From a virus, in IMG/VR virus record IMGVR_UViG_3300042923_001084, positions 1 to 36,924 of that record: 36,924 nucleotides of DNA, one strand, 5' to 3'. The notes under the pieces are model-generated. The model saw nothing but the letters and a program-made list of their open reading frames with translations, did no database searches and was not told the DNA's origin. A program made the position numbers and the translations under genes. The first letter of the stretch is position 1. Each line of letters begins with the position of its first letter. This document shows, piece by piece, positions 586 through 36,924 of this stretch.

Positions 586-906
586 CTATTCAATACTTTT
601 ATTCAACTCACCATCATCTAGGTAATCCTTAGCTTTCGAGTATAGATAATGAATCATTTTTCCCATATTTTCTTCTGAAATAAATATAGTGATGGATCTT
701 GGCAAGAACTGATAGGCTTTTTTCACTACCCATTCTTCTTGCTGCTTACCACTCTTAAGCACTGCATCTTTTGCTAAGCTCTTAGCCTGTAGCATTAAAG
801 CATAAGATTTAGTTTTAACCTTCTGCCATTCAAAAGCTGCATAAACAGCAAATGCTATAGCTAGGATAATTATATATCTCCAGTCCCATAATAATTGTTT
901 TAACAT
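586..906 (-). CDS. small membrane protein, possible LL-H-type holin or lysis accessory
   Basis: A 106-residue protein with one N-terminal membrane helix (about residues 10-26) followed by a charged helical domain. It is the last gene of the lysis cassette, 13 bases after the endolysin, with a GGAGG site seven bases before the ATG. The pattern of one helix plus a basic/helical tail recalls the LL-H holin superfamily, but I see no decisive motif. With the better holin candidate at 1791-2114 this could be a second holin, an antiholin or a spanin-like accessory. Confidence 0.75.
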   Translation of the reverse strand: MLKQLLWDWRYIIILAIAFAVYAAFEWQKVKTKSYALMLQAKSLAKDAVLKSGKQQEEWVVKKAYQFLPRSITIFISEENMGKMIHYLYSKAKDYLDDGELNKSIE

Positions 907-919
907 GATATTTCCTCCA

Positions 920-1777
920 TTAACTTAATAATTCTAACCAGGTTATTGGGCCAACAGTATAGTCAACCTCTAGACCATTTGCTTTCTGAAATTTACCTAT
1001 AGCATCGTAGGTTTCATGAAAAGGTGCACTACCATAGCTATTGTCTACTTTTATTCTTAAAATACTTTGTATAACTCCAACTAATGGGCTTCTGTCGCCT
1101 CTCCTTACAACTGCTTTTAATTTCTTTATTGCTTCTCTTGTTTTTGGTCCTAGCTTACCATCTTCATCAAGTCTATTGCCATCATCATCTGCTATTCCCA
1201 TTGCATTACAAGCCTTCTGGAAAGCTAATACATGAGTATTGAAGTGAATATCGTTTTTTTGTGGAGTAACAGGACTTGGTTGTTCTACTACATAAGTAAT
1301 GAACGGGCACTTCATCCAATGAGTCCAGGCGGTTGCTCCTTTTCCTTTCAGTGGTGTTTGTATTACCCCATACTTGGTTCCATGACTTTCAATTACCTGT
1401 CCATTTCCTATGTAGATACCTACATGTCCTTTCTTCCAAAGGATTAATCCTGGTATTTCCGGTAGAGTGCTTATAGATCCTTTTTCAGTAGCTCTATTAT
1501 ACATTCCATCTGCACTTACATCACTGCTGCTATTGTAATTTAAATCACCATTTTCTAACCAATAATAAGATTTTATGAGTCCTACACAGTCAGCAGTCTT
1601 TCTGCCAAGCCAATGTCTCCTAATAAAGCTATCAAAGTTTTTAACGCTAGGGTACTGCTTTAACTTTGCTTTGTACAAAGCTTCAGTTAGTACTTTTCCA
1701 AAAGTCCCCCATACATAGCCCCATTTTTCAGATAAAGCCTTTCTTGCATGTTCTACTAGTCCTTTGTTGTTTAACAT
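920..1777 (-). CDS. endolysin: NlpC/P60 cysteine peptidase with peptidoglycan-binding repeats
   Basis: A 285-residue lysin that cuts peptide cross-links of the host wall at the end of infection. Residues 1 to about 165 form an NlpC/P60-type domain: Cys64 lies in TADCVGL, His118 in GHVGIYIGNG, and His132 follows in ESHG. The C-terminal 110 residues hold two peptidoglycan-binding-like units, one around LGPKTREAIKKL and one around TVGPITWLELLS. There is no signal peptide, so export depends on a holin. It sits between the two holin candidates and starts at ATG behind AGGAGG. Confidence 0.92.
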   Translation of the reverse strand: MLNNKGLVEHARKALSEKWGYVWGTFGKVLTEALYKAKLKQYPSVKNFDSFIRRHWLGRKTADCVGLIKSYYWLENGDLNYNSSSDVSADGMYNRATEKGSISTLPEIPGLILWKKGHVGIYIGNGQVIESHGTKYGVIQTPLKGKGATAWTHWMKCPFITYVVEQPSPVTPQKNDIHFNTHVLAFQKACNAMGIADDDGNRLDEDGKLGPKTREAIKKLKAVVRRGDRSPLVGVIQSILRIKVDNSYGSAPFHETYDAIGKFQKANGLEVDYTVGPITWLELLS

Positions 1778-18162: not shown

Positions 18163-18675
18163 TTATTTGACTTCAAGTTCTTTTTTTTTATGCTCTCCTT
18201 TAAGTAAATCCCCAACTTCTTCACCAAATTGATTTCTTAAATCAACATACATTTTGGTATACTTTAAGAGATCTTCTTCTACTAATGAATCATTGTTTAT
18301 TGTATAGAATATAATTTCATGAGCTAAATTACTTAGTCTAAAGGCATAGTTAGCTACATAGTTCATCCTTTTGCCTACTTCCTGGATATTATACCATGAT
18401 GTCAATCCCGTTGATATCGCACTAACAATTAGTGCGATAGATTGTCCTATTTCCCCTAATTTTAAGCCAAGTAAAATGGTAGTGATAGTCGCTAATATTA
18501 TCTGAATTATTGATATTACTTTTCTCTTATTAGCAGCTTTTTTATTTGCTTCATTCATTATTTTACTTTTAGCTTGTATATCGTTTATCAAGAAGTTAAA
18601 CTTTTCTTCAATTTTGTATGACAATATACTCCCCCCATTAGCTATTTTTTCTCTCACTTGAAGAATTAGTGACAT
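18163..18675 (-). CDS. two-helix membrane protein, SLATT-like
   Basis: A 170-residue protein with an N-terminal helical segment, two adjacent membrane helices (about 53-71 and 76-97) and a cytoplasmic helical tail. This is the layout of SLATT two-helix effectors, thought to permeabilise membranes in nucleotide-signal defence systems. No nucleotide cyclase or SLOG partner is adjacent, so the assignment rests on topology. A second start, TTG 18624, has a much stronger ribosome site (GGGGGAG) than ATG 18675 and would give 153 residues. The gene has its own promoter region and terminator inside a repeat-bounded cassette. Confidence 0.7.
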   Translation of the reverse strand: MSLILQVREKIANGGSILSYKIEEKFNFLINDIQAKSKIMNEANKKAANKRKVISIIQIILATITTILLGLKLGEIGQSIALIVSAISTGLTSWYNIQEVGKRMNYVANYAFRLSNLAHEIIFYTINNDSLVEEDLLKYTKMYVDLRNQFGEEVGDLLKGEHKKKELEVK

Positions 18676-28862: not shown

Positions 28863-29375
28863 ATGAAGAGATACATAAGTATAATATTTATATTGCTTTT
28901 AATTATATTTATTAAAGGACAAGTTTCCGCACATCCAGGTAATACTGATGCTTTTGGTGGGCATTACAACAGAACAACAGGCGAATACCATTATCATAAT
29001 AGTGGTATTTCTACAAGCTCTAATGATACTTACACATACAAAACTGATAACAGTAGTTCTGAAGTTCCCTCATGGCTTATAACTGACCAAAGCAAAGCTA
29101 ATATAACCATTAAGGAACTAACGGAACTAAAAAAACAACTAACAAGTTATCTATCTTCGACGCAATTTCTTGAATCCTCTATCAAAGATAAGAATAAAGA
29201 GATAGATGAATTAAAAGAAACTCTATTGAATAAAGAAAATGATTTTAATATCATAAATTATAAACTTAGTACCCTTCAGAATAATTTTAAAATTTTATTA
29301 GCAGTTCTAATTATTTTATCTATATTTGTAATAGGTCTAACAATAAAAATACTTAAACTAAAAACAAGAGCTTAG
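28863..29375 (+). CDS. secreted/anchored YHYH-domain surface protein (conversion gene)
   Basis: A 170-residue protein: signal peptide (1 to about 23, cleavage after VSA), then HPGNTDAFGGHYNR and EYHYHN (a YHYH-like His-rich motif), a coiled coil (about 85-140) and a C-terminal membrane helix (about 145-165). It should be exported and held at the membrane with the His-rich domain exposed. It follows the repressor in the same direction and is probably expressed in lysogens, so a surface or exclusion role is likely but unproven. Confidence 0.8.
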   Translation: MKRYISIIFILLLIIFIKGQVSAHPGNTDAFGGHYNRTTGEYHYHNSGISTSSNDTYTYKTDNSSSEVPSWLITDQSKANITIKELTELKKQLTSYLSSTQFLESSIKDKNKEIDELKETLLNKENDFNIINYKLSTLQNNFKILLAVLIILSIFVIGLTIKILKLKTRA

Positions 29376-29629: not shown

Positions 29630-29785
29630 ATGAATATTGACATTGAAAATCTTCTAAAGGAAGCCAAAGTCCTGTATTGGAAGGAAAATGAAACTTTCCA
29701 ACAAAATCATATCGGTATACAAGACATTAATAAAAGTAAAGATAATGATTTTGAAACTCTTGTATTACAATGTAATAAGGAGTGA
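29630..29785 (+). CDS. small protein upstream of the serine integrase
   Basis: A 51-residue acidic protein (MNIDIENLLKEAKVLYWKEN) starting at ATG 29630 behind GGGGG; the longer frame from 29582 lacks a ribosome site. Its stop is five bases before the integrase ATG. Position suggests co-regulation with the integrase; a recombination directionality role is possible but only inferred. The CI-type half-site GTATACT covers its ribosome site region. Confidence 0.65.
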   Translation: MNIDIENLLKEAKVLYWKENETFQQNHIGIQDINKSKDNDFETLVLQCNKE

Positions 29786-29790
29786 TTAAA

Positions 29791-31356
29791 ATGATTGCCG
29801 CAATTTATGCTAGAAAATCAATTGAAACTAAAACCGGAGAATCTATTGAAAATCAAATTAATATGTGCAGAGAACACGGAAAGACACTTGGTATAAGTGA
29901 GTTTATTATATACCAGGATGAAGGTTTTTCTGGAAGAAATACTGAAAGACCTGAATTGCAAAGAATGATCCAGGACTCTAAAAAGAAAAGGTTTGATATG
30001 CTTATATGCTACAAGCTAGATAGAATTGCTAGGAATGTTTTAGACTTTGCACAGCTGGTAGAACAGCTCAGTAAGGATGGCATAAGTTTTATATCTTTAA
30101 GAGATCAATTTGACACTAGTTCTCCCATGGGAAGAGCTATGATGTACATAACAAGTGTTTTTGCACAACTTGAACGTGAAACTATTCAAGAACGTGTAAA
30201 AGATAATATGATTGAGCTTTCTAAGACTGGAAGATGGCTTGGGGGAGTCCCACCTCTAGGATTTAAAACTGAGCGAATAGTAGAAAATGGTAAAGAAGTT
30301 ACATATCTCGTTCCAGATGAGGATGAGCTTGAAATTGTAAGAATAGTTTTTGAAAAATATATTGAGCTTAAAAGCATGTATAAGGTTATGCAATATTTAT
30401 TAGAGCATAATATAGGCAGTCAATATCGTAAATGGGATATAACCAGAGTGGGTGCTGTCCTTAAAGGTGGATATTATGTTAAATCAAATGGAGATGTAAA
30501 AGCTTATTTAAAAAATAAAGGCTGTGCAGTAGTTGGAAATATGAATGGGAATGGTCTTGTAGTATATAATCAAAAGACAGGCACCAATAAGCGTAAAGAG
30601 TTCACAGAATGGATTTATGCTGCTGGTAGGCATAAAGGTATTCTTGAAGCTGATTTATGGCTAAAAACACAATATATGATTGATAAGCATAAAGATAAAC
30701 ACTACTTCTATAGAGAAGGATATTCAGACTATTCTTTTTTAACTGGTTTAATTAAATGTGGAAAATGCGGAAGTAGCATGAATATTAGGTTTGGTGCTTC
30801 AGACCAGTATGGCGAAAGATTTATTTACTATGGTTGTAGAACAATGGGCACATTTTACAGCTGTAAATCTAAATATATAAGAAAAGAAAAGTTAGATGAA
30901 GCGGTTGTAAAATATCTAGAATATTTATCAACTAATGAAGAACTCTTAAGGTCCCAATTAAAAATGAATGAGGATATCAAAATTAATAAAAATAATAGTG
31001 AAGTCAGTAGAATAAAGAGGCTAATTGATAAGAATAATACTGCAATTAGTAATCTTATTAAAAAACTATCTGTGTTATCTGATGAAGCTGCTACATATAT
31101 AAACGTTGAGTTGGATAGACTAAGTAAAGAAAATGTTGAACTAAAAAACAAACTTCTTTCATTAGAAGTTCAACAGGATAGACAGGATAGCGATAAGGTT
31201 AAAAAGGAAATCAGGTACGATAAAATCAAGAATTTTAAACACGCTTTTGAGATCTGTGAGACAAATGCAGAGAGAAGATTAGTAATAAGTTCGATAGTTG
31301 AAAAAATCACTTGGAATAATGAAATAAAAACAGCTGATATTAAGCTGCTGGAATAG
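29791..31356 (+). CDS. large serine integrase
   Basis: A 521-residue serine recombinase. Resolvase domain: nucleophile Ser10 (YARKS), R8, DEGFSGRN, CYKLDRIARN, and GRAMMYITSVFAQLERE. It continues with the recombinase domain (about 155-290), a zinc ribbon with Cys323, Cys326, Cys349 and Cys358, and a coiled coil (about 380-460). It integrates and excises the phage. ATG 29791 follows AAGGAGTGA. It ends at a terminator followed directly by the candidate attP. Confidence 0.95.
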   Translation: MIAAIYARKSIETKTGESIENQINMCREHGKTLGISEFIIYQDEGFSGRNTERPELQRMIQDSKKKRFDMLICYKLDRIARNVLDFAQLVEQLSKDGISFISLRDQFDTSSPMGRAMMYITSVFAQLERETIQERVKDNMIELSKTGRWLGGVPPLGFKTERIVENGKEVTYLVPDEDELEIVRIVFEKYIELKSMYKVMQYLLEHNIGSQYRKWDITRVGAVLKGGYYVKSNGDVKAYLKNKGCAVVGNMNGNGLVVYNQKTGTNKRKEFTEWIYAAGRHKGILEADLWLKTQYMIDKHKDKHYFYREGYSDYSFLTGLIKCGKCGSSMNIRFGASDQYGERFIYYGCRTMGTFYSCKSKYIRKEKLDEAVVKYLEYLSTNEELLRSQLKMNEDIKINKNNSEVSRIKRLIDKNNTAISNLIKKLSVLSDEAATYINVELDRLSKENVELKNKLLSLEVQQDRQDSDKVKKEIRYDKIKNFKHAFEICETNAERRLVISSIVEKITWNNEIKTADIKLLE

Positions 31357-31492: not shown

Positions 31493-31981
31493 TTATTTAA
31501 TTATTGTTATATAGTCTTTGGCTGTCTGTGCTTCAAAACTCTTAATTAACTGTATAATTTTTTTGAAGCTGTCTATACTAATATGTGAAGACTTGAGTTT
31601 TGAATAAATCTCATGTGCATCATTTTTAAATTTCATGTATTTGAAGTCATTAAGATAATCGCCCAAAGATTCATTAATGACCTTCTTCAAGTAAAAGATC
31701 TGCTCATGATTAAGGTTTCCGGCCTGAATAGCATCATGAAACAGGTCTTTTGCTATTTGGTAGTAATTTTCTATCTCTTTCCTCAGAAGTATGTCTTCCA
31801 GTTCAAGCTGCTGTTTGATTTTCTTTTGCTGCAGCTCCTGAGCCTTCTGTTTATTGTAATTTTGATAAGCTTTTTCTTTTGTAAGCTTATGCATGAGCCA
31901 GACATTACCTATCTTAATTAAGACCGGTAACATGGCAGCAATTGTTGCATAAATCATGAGTTTTGTTAGTAATGTTTCCAT
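31493..31981 (-). CDS. membrane-anchored coiled-coil protein of unknown function
   Basis: A 162-residue protein with an N-terminal membrane helix (about 5-27), a Lys/Gln-rich coiled coil (about 33-75, KAQELQQKKIKQQLELEDIL) and a helical C-terminal domain. It is the first gene next to attP in the conversion region, expressed leftward on its own. No family recognised; a tethered cytoplasmic binding domain is the plain reading. Confidence 0.7.
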   Translation of the reverse strand: METLLTKLMIYATIAAMLPVLIKIGNVWLMHKLTKEKAYQNYNKQKAQELQQKKIKQQLELEDILLRKEIENYYQIAKDLFHDAIQAGNLNHEQIFYLKKVINESLGDYLNDFKYMKFKNDAHEIYSKLKSSHISIDSFKKIIQLIKSFEAQTAKDYITIIK

Positions 31982-32208
31982 TTGTACATCTTCCTTTCAT
32001 AAATTTGTTTTTTACTTATTTTTCGGTGGTTGCTGGACAGCATCATGTGTGAAAGGGTATATATAAAAATAAGTAAACTATAAGTTGTATGGTGGAAAAT
32101 GCATAAATCTATTTTAAATAGTACGGTTACAGATATATAACTCTATTAAATGCTATATATAAGACTATACTATGAATTCTCCTGCAAATTTTATATACAG
32201 TTGGATTC

Positions 32209-32248
32209 GTGGCTCAGAACCCCCATGTTTCCGTGGTTCCCGAGCCAC
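32209..32248. repeat. GC-rich two-tier hairpin downstream of the FtsK operon
   Basis: GTGGCTC (32209-32215) pairs with GAGCCAC (32242-32248), and GAACC (32217-32221) with GGTTC (32235-32239), giving 12 bp with a small internal bulge and a 13-base loop. No T-tract follows on either strand. Nearby AGTAATA occurs twice (32253, 32274). It could be a replication or transfer origin for the adjacent module or a structured 3' end. The gap 31982-32300 holds nothing else I can support. Confidence 0.55.
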
Positions 32249-32300
32249 AATTAGTAATAAGTAATCAAAGATCAGTAATAGGTATTTAGTATTATATTTA

Positions 32301-32885
32301 TTACCCTAATATCCTATCTTTGAAGTTGTCCATTTTCTCATTCAGATAAGTAATGTCCAAGCAGTTGCTCTCATATTTTAGAGGATTTTCATCTACTGAA
32401 ATCACAGTTATTAATGGAAATATTCCATAACACTTCTTCTGCAGCTCCTCAGTAGAATATAACTTTTCGTAAAGCTGAAACTTTGAAAGTGAAGTTACAT
32501 GAGTGAAATCCACTTCCAGTAAAACAAAATATAGATTTTCTTCATATTCAAATTTAAAGATAGCGTCAGGCCTTACCAAGTCTTTCAAAAATCTCGGCTG
32601 CCTTTTAATCTCTACATTGGTGCAACCATGATAAACAAGTAACGAATAAAATTCATTTATATACAAGTCATGACTTGAAACTTTATCATCAGTGTAATAA
32701 ACCTTTTCATCTGTAAGCTTATTCTTATAGCTTCTTACAAGTCCAAACTCTTCTAGCTGCTTTAGCCTTACTCTAGCTCTATCATATGCATATTTAGCTT
32801 CGTTAAAATACATTCTGGAAGCTTGGGTAATGGTAAGAGCTTTATTATCTTCTAAAAACTTAAGTATTTTTTTATCCCTAGGCAT
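32301..32885 (-). CDS. replication-relaxation family-like protein
   Basis: A 194-residue protein. The N-terminal winged helix (MPRDKKILKFLEDNKALTIT, then LKQLEEFGLVRSY) is followed by a domain with RPDAIFKFEY, LYFVLLEVDFTH and KFQLYEKLY, matching the replication-relaxation type found on plasmids and integrative elements next to FtsK/TraB-like genes. It overlaps the FtsK-like gene by eight bases (ATG 32885 preferred over GTG 32891). It probably recognises a DNA site for plasmid-like replication or transfer. Confidence 0.75.
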   Translation of the reverse strand: MPRDKKILKFLEDNKALTITQASRMYFNEAKYAYDRARVRLKQLEEFGLVRSYKNKLTDEKVYYTDDKVSSHDLYINEFYSLLVYHGCTNVEIKRQPRFLKDLVRPDAIFKFEYEENLYFVLLEVDFTHVTSLSKFQLYEKLYSTEELQKKCYGIFPLITVISVDENPLKYESNCLDITYLNEKMDNFKDRILG

Positions 32886-34218
32886 TAACACTCTTGTTCA
32901 CCTCACTTAATGGTATTGCATGACCTTTGCCACGCTTTGGAGCTTGCATCTGTCCTGCTGGTTCCTGCTTCTCTGGTACATTCATGAGAGGAATAGTGTC
33001 TCTAATAGTTTTCCATTCTTCTGGTGTTGGATTATGCCACCCACCTCTTAAAACTGTTTTGCCTTGAGGTTCTTCTAGTATTTGTTCTTTCACCTTAATG
33101 CCTAGTGAACTATTTATAATTGAATTGTCTATATAAGGTGTTTTTAGGTGTACATATTCATGGCCTGTGAAAACTATGCATTCCTGCGCCAGTAACCCGT
33201 GAGCATCAGTAGTACCTATGATATTCTCTGAATCCCTTGCACTTAATTGAGCAAAGCTACAGCGACACATCTGGCTTTTTATTAATGAATTTATCTCTGT
33301 AACAGTGCTTCTTTGAAGTCCGCTTATAAAAAATATTCCTACTGAACGGCCTAGCTTAGCAATTTTCTTAAGTACACTTTCAATAACTTCCTTATACTTA
33401 GTTTCTTCCTCGCAGTCATTTTCATCTTTCATGAAGAGACTATATTCATCTGCAAATATATAAATGTACTTTAGCTTGTTTTTAGCTATTTTGTTATACT
33501 CATATATATTTTCACTATTCATAGCATCAATTTTTTCTGCCCTTTTTTCAATTGCTTTCTCAATCTTTTCAAGAATTATCTTACAGTGCACCAATTCATC
33601 CATAAATAACTTAACCTGCTTCAAGTCCTTAAATTTCTTAAGGTCTTTTTTCAACAACTCCATTAGATATAGTTCAATTTCGCTTTCGTCGTGATTATGA
33701 AGCAATGTAGTTAAAGCTATAAATTGAAGTCTGCTCTTCCCAGATCCACGGATGCCTCCAATAAGTAAGTGTGAATCTTCAACCATATTTAATTTGTAAG
33801 GTGTTCCGTCATACTTATAGCCCAAGAAGAGTTCATAAGGCTTAGTTTCTACTAATTCATAAGTTAAGTTATTAAGAGGATTGTTAATAATTTTTACATT
33901 GGCATATGGAGCAAATTTATATTTTTCTATTTCACATAGACAATTCAAGTTTGTCTCAATAACCTGCTTTTGCTTTTCCAAGTCCTCGAAACTTTTTCTA
34001 AATGGTATGCTAACTTTACAGTCGAACCCGTACTCTTTTTGATTTATAGACACTATTTCAAATGTTGAGAATGTGTCATCTTCATTTTTTACAGCAACTC
34101 CAGCCATAGCTGCATTCCATTTAGATATCAAATTTCTTTCTTCTTTATGTTCTTTTATATTTTTAATCTTTCTGTAAGCAACTGTGGTTAAGCCAGCTAT
34201 TAGCAGTTCACTTACCAT
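32878..34218 (-). CDS. FtsK/HerA-type DNA translocase ATPase
   Basis: A 446-residue ATPase with Walker A GGIRGSGKS (154-162), Walker B IYIFADE (252-258) and a GIFFISGLQRST sensor segment (294-305), in the FtsK/SpoIIIE-TraB style. It lacks the long membrane domain of true FtsK; two membrane microproteins encoded directly upstream may supply anchoring. The C-terminus is Pro/Gln-rich. Translation is coupled to the 47-residue gene (TAATG) and to the replication-relaxation gene. Confidence 0.85.
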   Translation of the reverse strand: MVSELLIAGLTTVAYRKIKNIKEHKEERNLISKWNAAMAGVAVKNEDDTFSTFEIVSINQKEYGFDCKVSIPFRKSFEDLEKQKQVIETNLNCLCEIEKYKFAPYANVKIINNPLNNLTYELVETKPYELFLGYKYDGTPYKLNMVEDSHLLIGGIRGSGKSRLQFIALTTLLHNHDESEIELYLMELLKKDLKKFKDLKQVKLFMDELVHCKIILEKIEKAIEKRAEKIDAMNSENIYEYNKIAKNKLKYIYIFADEYSLFMKDENDCEEETKYKEVIESVLKKIAKLGRSVGIFFISGLQRSTVTEINSLIKSQMCRCSFAQLSARDSENIIGTTDAHGLLAQECIVFTGHEYVHLKTPYIDNSIINSSLGIKVKEQILEEPQGKTVLRGGWHNPTPEEWKTIRDTIPLMNVPEKQEPAGQMQAPKRGKGHAIPLSEVNKSVNA

Positions 34219-34361
34219 TACTTCTTACCCCTTTTCTTGATCTTCATATCCAAAATAGGACTAGCAATTGCAGAAATACCTAATACTAAACAAAATAACT
34301 TTTCGGGGCTTAATATTAATCCCTTTAGAGCTGTAAGTATGACTAGATCTAAACCCATCAT
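34218..34361 (-). CDS. membrane microprotein in the FtsK operon
   Basis: A 47-residue protein (MMGLDLVILTALKG) with a central membrane helix and a basic end (MKIKKRGKK). ATG 34361 follows AGGAGG, and its stop overlaps the FtsK ATG. Its tight coupling suggests it works with the translocase, perhaps as its membrane anchor. Confidence 0.75.
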   Translation of the reverse strand: MMGLDLVILTALKGLILSPEKLFCLVLGISAIASPILDMKIKKRGKK

Positions 34362-34366
34362 TTGCT

Positions 34367-34447
34367 TTACCTCCTCATCTGGTCCACATTGTAATTAATA
34401 ACAATTGTGCCAATAATAATAGTTGAAACATAAAGAATAATACTCAT
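34367..34447 (-). CDS. 26-residue membrane microprotein, first gene of the FtsK operon
   Basis: A 26-residue peptide (MSIILYVSTIIIGTIVINYN) that is essentially one membrane helix plus DQMRR. ATG 34447 is behind AGGAGG and its stop is inside the ribosome site of the next gene. Too short to be sure from sequence alone, but the ribosome site and spacing support it. Confidence 0.55.
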   Translation of the reverse strand: MSIILYVSTIIIGTIVINYNVDQMRR

Positions 34448-34514
34448 AGAACCTCCTATTAACTAAATTATTTAATCTACTAATATACTATGAGGTGTAC
34501 TATGAAAACTTTCC

Positions 34515-34556
34515 ATTTTTCATAATATTTTTTCATTATTTATGATATTTTTTCAT
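34515..34556. repeat. 12-bp direct repeats with 20-bp spacing
   Basis: ATATTTTTTCAT occurs exactly at 34525-34536 and 34545-34556, and a shorter ATTTTTCAT at 34515-34523. They lie between the terminator of the XRE gene and the start of the FtsK operon, in its promoter region. A 20-bp period (two helical turns) suggests an operator array or iterons. Confidence 0.6.
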
Positions 34557-34557
34557 A

Positions 34558-34590
34558 AAAAAAGATATGGCTATTCTTCATACCATATCT
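34558..34590 (-). terminator. terminator of the XRE regulator gene
   Basis: Stem AGATATGG/CCATATCT (34563-34570/34583-34590) with a 12-base loop, followed on the minus strand by TTTTTTTTATG. It overlaps the end of the HTH gene and directly precedes the repeat array. Confidence 0.8.
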
Positions 34591-34771
34591 CATCTATCTT
34601 CTTATTCAATATACGTGCTATTTCAACTGCTTTTTGTAGCGTTGGATTATTTACTCCACTTTCCCATTGCGAATAAGTAGATTGCTTAATCCCCAATAGT
34701 TTTGCAAACTCTACAGCACTCATCATGTACTCTCTCATCCGTATCTCTTTAAGCCTATTCTTTACCCCCAT
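34571..34771 (-). CDS. XRE regulator of the FtsK module
   Basis: A 66-residue HTH protein (KNRLKEIRMREYMMSAVEFA, then IKQSTYSQWESGVNNP), of the short plasmid/ICE-type kind, distinct from the phage switch regulators. It is separated by a strong terminator and a repeat array from the FtsK operon it probably controls. ATG with GAGGTGG. Confidence 0.85.
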   Translation of the reverse strand: MGVKNRLKEIRMREYMMSAVEFAKLLGIKQSTYSQWESGVNNPTLQKAVEIARILNKKIDEIWYEE

Positions 34772-36032: not shown

Positions 36033-36924
36033 TCAGTTCTTAATATTTTTAAATACTTGAGACATTACACCTTCAGGTAATGTTGGGCTGGAATCTCCTT
36101 TAAGTAATCCAGTATCAGCTCTACTAAAGATTGACTGTATTACAATACTTCTTTCCTGATCAGCAACACCTTTTTCTTTGAGTAAAGATAAAAATACACA
36201 AGTCAGTTGATATCTTTCCTTAGCATCAGTTGATAAATGGTATGCACTAGTTGATAGCTTCACAAACAGACGTATAATGTATATTCCTACTGATGAAATA
36301 AGTGCTAAAATAATACTTCCTCTAAGGTTTTCTGTACTAAAAACTCCTTTATATTCGAATATTGTTTGTGGTATACTAAACAATAATGCTGTTAAAAATA
36401 ATATAAATACTGTAGAAGTTATCACCGCCCACATTCTCCACCTATCTCCATTTACCTTGTATTCTGTCTCTAAATTTTTCCAATGTTTAGCTGGGCCTTC
36501 TAATCTTAATTGTTCATTATAATACTTTTCTAATTCCTCTAACTTTTTCTCTTTTTCATCCAAAACTTTATTTATCTTTTCTTCTGTTTCTGATTTCCAT
36601 GTCATTAATCCATTCTTAAAGATATCTACTTCGTCATTTACCTGGTTCTTAACGCTAACATATTCATTATATATAGTGTCTACCCCTTCTGAATATATTT
36701 TATGTAAATCATTTAGACAACCCTTCTCGGCATCCGTATTTATTTTATTAGCATATGAGAACTCATCAACAATAATACAATTCATCAATCCAATGGAATA
36801 ATTAAAATCGTTAGGATAAGATATCCTACGATTAAAATAATAGTCACATGCAGCGTTACCTTGCATCGGGTTTATCTGATATCTTGCTTTAATAAGCCTT
36901 CCAATCTTTGTTGTTGAAAATATT
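36033..36924 (-). CDS. junction-spanning two-helix membrane protein, C-terminal part (DUF6161-like)
   Basis: Continuation of the gene that starts at TTG 432 on the other side of the circular join (398 residues in all). This part carries the coiled coil (whole-protein residues about 216-246, VLDEKEKKLEELEKYYNEQL), two membrane helices (about 267-286 and 304-324) and a C-terminal segment, LSTDAKERYQLTCVFLSLL then IQSIFSRADTGLLKGD, resembling the DUF6161 family ending. An ATG at 36866 is internal, not the start. The protein probably sits in the inner membrane with both termini cytoplasmic. Function unknown; conversion gene by position. Confidence 0.85.
   Translation of the reverse strand, partial: IFSTTKIGRLIKARYQINPMQGNAACDYYFNRRISYPNDFNYSIGLMNCIIVDEFSYANKINTDAEKGCLNDLHKIYSEGVDTIYNEYVSVKNQVNDEVDIFKNGLMTWKSETEEKINKVLDEKEKKLEELEKYYNEQLRLEGPAKHWKNLETEYKVNGDRWRMWAVITSTVFILFLTALLFSIPQTIFEYKGVFSTENLRGSIILALISSVGIYIIRLFVKLSTSAYHLSTDAKERYQLTCVFLSLLKEKGVADQERSIVIQSIFSRADTGLLKGDSSPTLPEGVMSQVFKNIKN
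36798..36924. repeat. terminal direct repeat, right copy
   Basis: Identical to bases 1-127; see the left copy. Removing it yields a closed 36,797-bp circle with an uninterrupted reading frame across the join. Confidence 0.97.

Follow-up and report, generated by a model that had tools for sequence, protein, structure and literature searches.

Motors of the FtsK type that are paired with a replication-relaxation (Replic_Relax) protein are widespread in phages that infect Gram-positive bacteria and have many times been annotated as "plasmid" genes. The Bacillus phage 268TH007 carries a 2,525-bp block of four genes, for FtsK, a replication-relaxation protein, an HTH regulator, and one more product, that is missing from its 96%-identical sister 268TH002 (PMC9476937). 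Phage SpaA1 has XRE, membrane protein, FtsK, and HTH protein genes (PMC3398947). Novomoskovsk and Bolokhovo, virulent according to their authors, encode TrbC/VIRB2, Replic_Relax, FtsK, and RHH proteins, and these genes were taken there as remnants of life as a plasmid (PMC9658697). Thrax phages combine ParM, a T4SS-type protein, and a replication-relaxation protein (PMC9703825), and for phage Pony a role in DNA injection was proposed (PMC3853050). In work on two streptococcal IMEs (PMC5357655), the partner's Pfam family, PF13814, served as the relaxase signature (MobC). A functional test of the FtsK-Replic_Relax pair was not found in the literature.

The DNA analyzed here, referred to as the window, is a viral stretch of 36,924 nt whose genes include those for terminase, portal, major head protein, tape measure, DnaB helicase, and endolysin; a search of the phage collection found no near match to the whole phage. 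A module at 32209-34771 had been proposed to make this phage a phage-ICE hybrid. That claim goes well past the evidence, and the block is a real, selected, and mobile accessory cassette. Almost certainly it represents, in a Clostridia-type form, an accessory cassette already known from Firmicutes phages, among which it moves horizontally.

Genomic Context and Organization of the Module

Comparison of the two ends of the window reveals an exact repeat of 127 bp, so the contig is circular, with 36,797 bp when the repeat is counted once, and the FtsK-Replic_Relax module therefore lies inside the phage genome and not in flanking host DNA. Host flanking DNA past the integrase was also considered and is ruled out by the terminal repeat together with a DUF6161 gene that spans the join. 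The contig is circular, but headful, induced, or excised DNA would look no different from a stable extrachromosomal circle. On the circle, the module is located between the lysis end and the serine integrase, a slot that is usual for accessory genes of Firmicutes phages. Upstream of the module are the DUF6161/AbiZ-like gene (AbiZ E 1e-27) and a bacterial PH-domain gene.

The five genes of the original prediction (XRE, 26 aa, 47 aa, FtsK, and Replic_Relax; Table 1) all lie on the minus strand in that order. Two membrane microproteins, a replication-relaxation-type protein, and an XRE regulator of the module's own are all present by ORFs, domain matches, and TM prediction, with one TM segment predicted in each microprotein. 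The anticipated translational coupling is likewise borne out, as an RBS (AGGAGG) falls within the 3' end of the 26-aa ORF, the stop of the 47-aa ORF overlaps the FtsK start as TAATG, and the FtsK and Replic_Relax genes overlap by 14 nt (32878-32891). Small TM proteins and an XRE/HTH regulator accompany the pair, as in SpaA1 and 268TH007. The limits first given to the module hold for the genes inside them but leave out the 162-aa gene. This gene and the intergenic DNA travel with the module in two close relatives, IMG/VR L018 and L019, to which a Replic_Relax scan led, and the unit thus extends past 32209-34771.

Table 1. Features of the module and of its immediate context in the window.
Feature	Position	Strand	Basis or remark
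XRE/HTH_3 regulator, first module gene	34571..34771	-	HTH_3 59.9 bits
Two perfect 18-nt direct repeats (ATGAAAAAATATYATRAA), operator-like	34519-34536 and 34539-34556	-	Between XRE and microproteins
26-aa microprotein, single TM	34367..34447	-	TM prediction; homologue in L019
47-aa membrane microprotein	34218..34361	-	TM segment; homologues of 52 aa in L018 and L019
FtsK/TcpA-type P-loop translocase, 446 aa	32878..34218	-	PF01580, phrog_1358; conserved C-terminal tail
Replic_Relax protein, 196 aa	32301..32891	-	PF13814; gene overlaps FtsK
Hairpin, 16 pairs	32199..32257 (paired region about 32207-32250)	-	Fold and conservation in three phages
Strongly conserved leader DNA	31982..32090	-	Upstream of 162-aa gene; bounded by TTTACTTATTTTT / AAAAATAAGTAAA inverted repeats
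162-aa protein, N-terminal TM and charged/coiled-coil body	31493..31981	-	Co-inherited; last module gene
Large serine integrase	29782..31356	+	Adjoins module; context, not a module part
Lysis-end genes: endolysin (920-1777) and small membrane protein	586..1777	-	Upstream of module on circular map; context

The Translocase and Its Partner

The translocase matches PF01580 at 34.7 bits (cut-off 24) and phrog_1358 at 179 bits. Its ATPase motifs are intact, with GGIRGSGKS as Walker A, YIYIFADE as Walker B, and an LQR motif, and motif decay, which had been named as telling against the hybrid reading, is absent. The Pfam scan gave no match to an FtsK-gamma (KOPS-reading) domain. Among solved structures, TcpA comes closest to the motor (profile E 2.1e-21; Foldseek fold E 2.0e-21, with a structure model of modest confidence, pLDDT 64), a match slightly better than that to the solved FtsK motor. 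The protein had been described as an FtsK/HerA ATPase without a membrane domain. No TM segment is found at a mean hydropathy of 1.2 or 1.6, in agreement with that description, but the ATPase is of the FtsK/TcpA type rather than the HerA type.

The partner matches PF13814 at 40.5 bits (cut-off 25.3) and belongs to a PHROG family of its own, phrog_9996. In its structure model, residues 1-69 fold as a winged helix that matches winged-helix regulators at a Z of about 9.6, and the second half is an alpha-beta-beta-beta-alpha domain with conserved D109, E126, D128, K137, and Y141. The elements of this domain follow the order of a PD-(D/E)XK nuclease, but E-x-D replaces E-x-K. Matches in the Foldseek/VIA fold search fall chiefly on the winged helix and barely cover the nuclease-like half, a putative domain that may nick DNA or simply hold it. 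Against close relatives, dN is 0.12-0.15 with dS at 2.5 or saturated, and by this measure Replic_Relax is under strong purifying selection. For comparison with an experimentally known MOBC relaxase, the CloDF13 record was scanned; it gave no PF13814 match, and mobC is unannotated in that record.

The two proteins appear to be bound to each other through the end of the motor. Compared with L018, motor residues 191-250 of FtsK are 28% identical, tail residues 381-446 are 53% identical, and Replic_Relax is 80% identical. A single protein of about 625 aa combines FtsK and Replic_Relax in Sarcina plasmid p1 and in phage contig L011. The greater conservation of the tail and the existence of these fusions suggest that the FtsK tail holds its partner. 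Judged from their sequences, relatives in which both are one protein show the FtsK-Replic_Relax linkage to be tight.

Repeats, Hairpin, and Leader DNA

The expected repeat array exists only in reduced form, as merely two perfect 18-nt copies, 20 bp apart, with a partial third. Their chance figure of 0.15 is optimistic, because the pattern was drawn from the copies themselves. The DNA around the repeats (34452-34564) is 78% identical to that of L019.

The predicted hairpin downstream of the pair is real, with an MFE of -23.4 kcal/mol and a z of -5.6, and is conserved in the two related phages. All 16 pairs are kept in the window, L018, and L019, and 3 of them are changed on both sides. With three sequences the covariation is non-significant (88 of 500 column shuffles reach it), although slid controls collapse and no pair is lost, and the conservation of pairs is suggestive, not significant. 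A search with the hairpin model found no match outside these three close phages, and the other carriers searched lack the element. It has no T-run and is no canonical terminator. Neither the hairpin nor the leader matches an Rfam family above the gathering score.

The leader is nearly invariant among the three phages, and its 26-nt core is found elsewhere only in L018 and L019 among 2.9 million viral contigs. Since its fold is no better than that of shuffles (z -0.2 to -0.8), the leader may be conserved at the level of DNA. A short ORF was considered for this region and is ruled out by a one-base insertion in L019.

Close Relatives and Mobility

The whole gene order is found in L019, with identities of 53% for XRE, 46% for the 26-aa protein, 41% for the 47-aa protein, 41% for FtsK, 78% for Replic_Relax, and 58% for the 162-aa gene. 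L018, which is cut by the contig end, retains the second microprotein, FtsK, Replic_Relax, and the 162-aa gene (60%). From the 162-aa gene through the intergenic region and Replic_Relax into the final part of FtsK, DNA identity is 71-73%, and beyond that point it ends. L019 is a sister phage (terminase 67% identical) with a tyrosine integrase in place of the serine integrase, and the terminase, portal, and tail of L018 are unrelated or barely related to those of the window. Presence on both a sister backbone and an unrelated one indicates that the module moves between backbones. Direct tblastn against phages gave no close relatives of FtsK or Replic_Relax; relatives were reached by way of Sarcina and Pony. 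The sole match in the scan of genome contigs was one distant Patescibacteria sequence.

Proposed Mechanism

The best explanation overall, with about an even chance of being right, sees the cassette as a dsDNA translocase, tethered to the membrane, that acts on circular phage DNA together with a docked subunit for DNA recognition and perhaps cleavage. The XRE protein would repress the operon via the 18-bp repeats. Once expressed, the two microproteins would anchor an FtsK/TcpA-like hexamer at the membrane, standing in for the TM domain that TcpA itself possesses, and the C-terminal tail of FtsK would dock Replic_Relax. The winged helix of Replic_Relax would then select a site on phage DNA, which its nuclease-like domain would nick or merely hold, and at the membrane the motor would shift the circular phage genome as dsDNA. 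Such movement could aid an extrachromosomal phase through positioning, resolution, or maintenance. A role of the cassette in extrachromosomal DNA is a tentative assignment, placed somewhat below even. The TcpA-like motor and the carriage of the pair by phage genomes that occur as circular plasmids speak for it; the small share of carriers with par genes speaks against it. The window has no match to ParA or ParM (PF13614, PF17989), where other replication or partition types could remain, and the presence of an integrase together with the absence of a ParA/ALP match counts against a role in extrachromosomal maintenance.

The main rival to the extrachromosomal-DNA reading is superinfection exclusion or defence, in which the tethered translocase and its nuclease-like subunit would attack the DNA of other phages as it enters the lysogen. 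The moron-type position beside the DUF6161/AbiZ-like gene would suit this role, as would the presence or absence of the cassette between near-identical phages and the fast divergence of the motor relative to the conserved tail and partner. HerA-nuclease defence complexes are also among the more distant structural matches of FtsK. However, no PADLOC model matches Replic_Relax, FtsK has only low-scoring matches, to the motor domains of SspH/mad8/HerA, and the pair is carried by phages described as virulent and by plasmids with par genes. These points count against defence, the less likely of the two readings.

Distribution among Phages

A tailed phage had been thought to have no need of such a translocase module, and the distribution of the pair contradicts this. 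Searching with Pony Replic_Relax yielded 57 phage records (some genomes twice, as GenBank and RefSeq copies), and 51 of them overlap an annotated FtsK. Four further records are FtsK-adjacent by other evidence, namely 268TH008, PM1 (two records), and vB_BhaS-171, the last counted through its RefSeq copy. An overlapping or adjacent FtsK is thus present in at least 55 of the 57, among them phages described as virulent; two Staphylococcus records lie outside this count. The corresponding search with Pony FtsK gave 158 phage and 409 plasmid records; at greater distance these are FtsK-like motors of any sort. Commonness in ordinary prophages with an unrelated role had been offered as grounds for abandoning the hybrid; the block is indeed common, but no demonstrated role was found.

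The occurrence of the pair in pageviruses and Andromedaviruses, along with the DNA-injection proposal of the Pony authors (PMC3853050), favors a motor that acts in infection, on DNA uptake, replication intermediates, or packaging, and not in lysogeny or as a plasmid function. This lytic-cycle role is nevertheless improbable, given that the cassette is dispensable between the sister phages 268TH002 and 268TH007 and that in the window it occupies a position typical of lysogenic conversion and is accompanied by an XRE regulator of its own. For the translocase acting on circular phage DNA, carriage by phages described as virulent does not fit maintenance of a plasmid-prophage.

Possible Plasmid or Conjugative Character

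The pair is also found in CP026602 and pGspE55-2, complete phage genomes that were deposited as circular plasmids. The layout of pGspE55-2, with lysis genes, FtsK-Replic_Relax, and a serine recombinase, is that of the window, and CP026602 encodes an actin-like ParM besides the pair. Both are typed non-mobilizable. Par genes are present in only 4 of 18 carriers, and a plasmid collection was the source of three of the four. In Bacillaceae, a TrbC/VirB2-like membrane protein follows the pair, according to sub-threshold Pfam matches.

These plasmids, the TcpA-like motor, and the PF13814 relaxase signature leave a plasmid or ICE flavor to the module, but no conjugation pore or partition gene is recognized in the window. 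It contains no T4SS genes (VirB4 ATPase etc.), and no TrbC-like gene is recognized in the module. The largest ORF is the terminase, at 568 aa, and the other large ORFs identified are phage or integrase genes; with no ORF above that size, the window has no VirB4-type ATPase.

A phage-ICE hybrid would use the motor as coupling protein and Replic_Relax as relaxase to mobilize the excised phage circle, IME-like, through a pore given in trans. The resemblance to TcpA, the use of PF13814 as the MobC signature in the two streptococcal IMEs (PMC5357655), and the TrbC/VirB2-like protein of Bacillaceae speak for such transfer. It is very improbable in view of the missing VirB4-type ATPase and TrbC-like gene, the non-mobilizable typing of the plasmid carriers, and a hairpin that is confined to close relatives and has no demonstrated nick motif. 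The block is also common in ordinary tailed phages, and the cassette alone does not make this phage a conjugating hybrid. Similarly remote is a broader proposal, that FtsK, Replic_Relax, and membrane protein form a minimal DNA-transfer or DNA-anchoring machine common to phages, phage-plasmids, and plasmids, with the hairpin and leader (31982-32300) as a loading or nicking site, by which the phage circle would persist or pass from cell to cell without virions.

The window, L018, and L019 define a compact Clostridia version of the cassette, consisting of motor, partner, two microproteins, the 162-aa gene, and a conserved hairpin, that is small enough for cloning and testing. A module that proved to stabilize circular phage DNA would help to account for the plasmid form in which some integrase-bearing phages are found, and one that kept out other phages would represent a new system of exclusion.

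Comparison with Known Systems

TcpA, the coupling protein of the C. perfringens conjugative plasmid pCW3 (PDB 6o1w-6o1z), is like the window FtsK in the motor domain. TcpA has its own N-terminal TM domain, whereas the window FtsK is without one and is accompanied by separate microproteins. The window FtsK also has a different partner protein, and no conjugation machinery surrounds it in the window. MOBC/Replic_Relax relaxases share with the partner the Pfam family PF13814 and the combination of a winged helix with a nuclease-like alpha/beta domain. The window protein is short by comparison (196 aa) and has E-x-D, not E-x-K, and a relaxase role for it is putative.

Besides L018 and L019, other Clostridia relatives carry the pair in different arrangements. 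FtsK and Replic_Relax are fused in plasmid p1 of Sarcina sp. JB2 and in L011 and abut in CP026602, whereas they are encoded by separate overlapping genes in the window. An RHH gene is upstream in all three, in place of the XRE gene of the window, and CP026602 and Sarcina p1 have partition genes too.

The Bacillus phage cassette (268TH007, SpaA1, Pony, Andromedavirus, and 276BB001; phrog_1358 and phrog_2190) differs in sequence and in accessory parts. Its FtsK is only 19-23% identical, its Replic_Relax belongs to phrog_2190 instead of phrog_9996, it has one microprotein where the window has two, and a TrbC-like protein (phrog_5422) takes the place of the 162-aa protein. The conserved hairpin is part of the window module and not of the Bacillus cassette. 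What the two have in common is the overlap of the FtsK and Replic_Relax genes, one or more small TM proteins, a nearby XRE/HTH regulator, presence or absence as a block, and, frequently, placement behind the lysis genes.

Contig ends and leader DNA

The window carries an exact terminal repeat of 127 bp, with positions 1-127 identical to 36798-36924, and its contig is therefore circular, with a length of 36,797 bp. One gene spans the join of the contig (table).

Features of the window and of related elements
Feature	Position	Strand	Setting
DUF6161/AbiZ-like gene	36033-36924 joined to 1-432	minus	window, spanning the contig join
FtsK-Replic_Relax fusion gene	L002 7881-9758		Sarcina plasmid
FtsK-Replic_Relax fusion gene	L011 3637-5511		phage contig related to the Sarcina plasmid

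The leader located 5' of the 162-aa gene (window 31982-32090) is nearly without variation, and its arms TTTACTTATTTTT and AAAAATAAGTAAA flank TGCTGTCCAGCA. Among viral contigs, its core is matched only in L018 and L019, the two relatives with the same module, and as RNA the leader folds no better than shuffled sequences.

Neighboring and small proteins

The module is adjoined by a GHKL-ATPase protein in the sister phage L019 (6179-7768) and by a protein resembling a nuclease, by eye only, in L018 (5182-5838), for which Pfam and PADLOC gave no match. Both are possible defence cargo. Within the window, the 170-aa product of 18163-18675 has a hydrophobic segment in its middle and resembles, by eye, SLATT/DUF4231-type membrane effectors. 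A second 170-aa protein (28863-29375), predicted to be secreted or membrane-anchored, adjoins the repressor genes and contains a YHYH-like HPGNTDAFGGHYNRTTGEYHYHN motif.

The FtsK-Replic_Relax pair in plasmids and phage-plasmids

A Sarcina plasmid and a phage contig related to it each encode FtsK and Replic_Relax as one fusion protein of ~625 aa. In Bacillaceae (L012, L014, L015, L016, and L027-L029), the pair is followed by a TrbC/VirB2-like membrane protein of 137-170 aa, assigned to phrog_5422, with Pfam TrbC/T4SS_pilin scores under the cut-off. Two circular "plasmids" carrying the pair, CP026602 (L030; 38,815 bp) and NZ_AP022559 (L034/L035; 43,187 bp), are complete phage genomes, that is, phage-plasmids, and CP026602 additionally encodes an actin-like partition gene.
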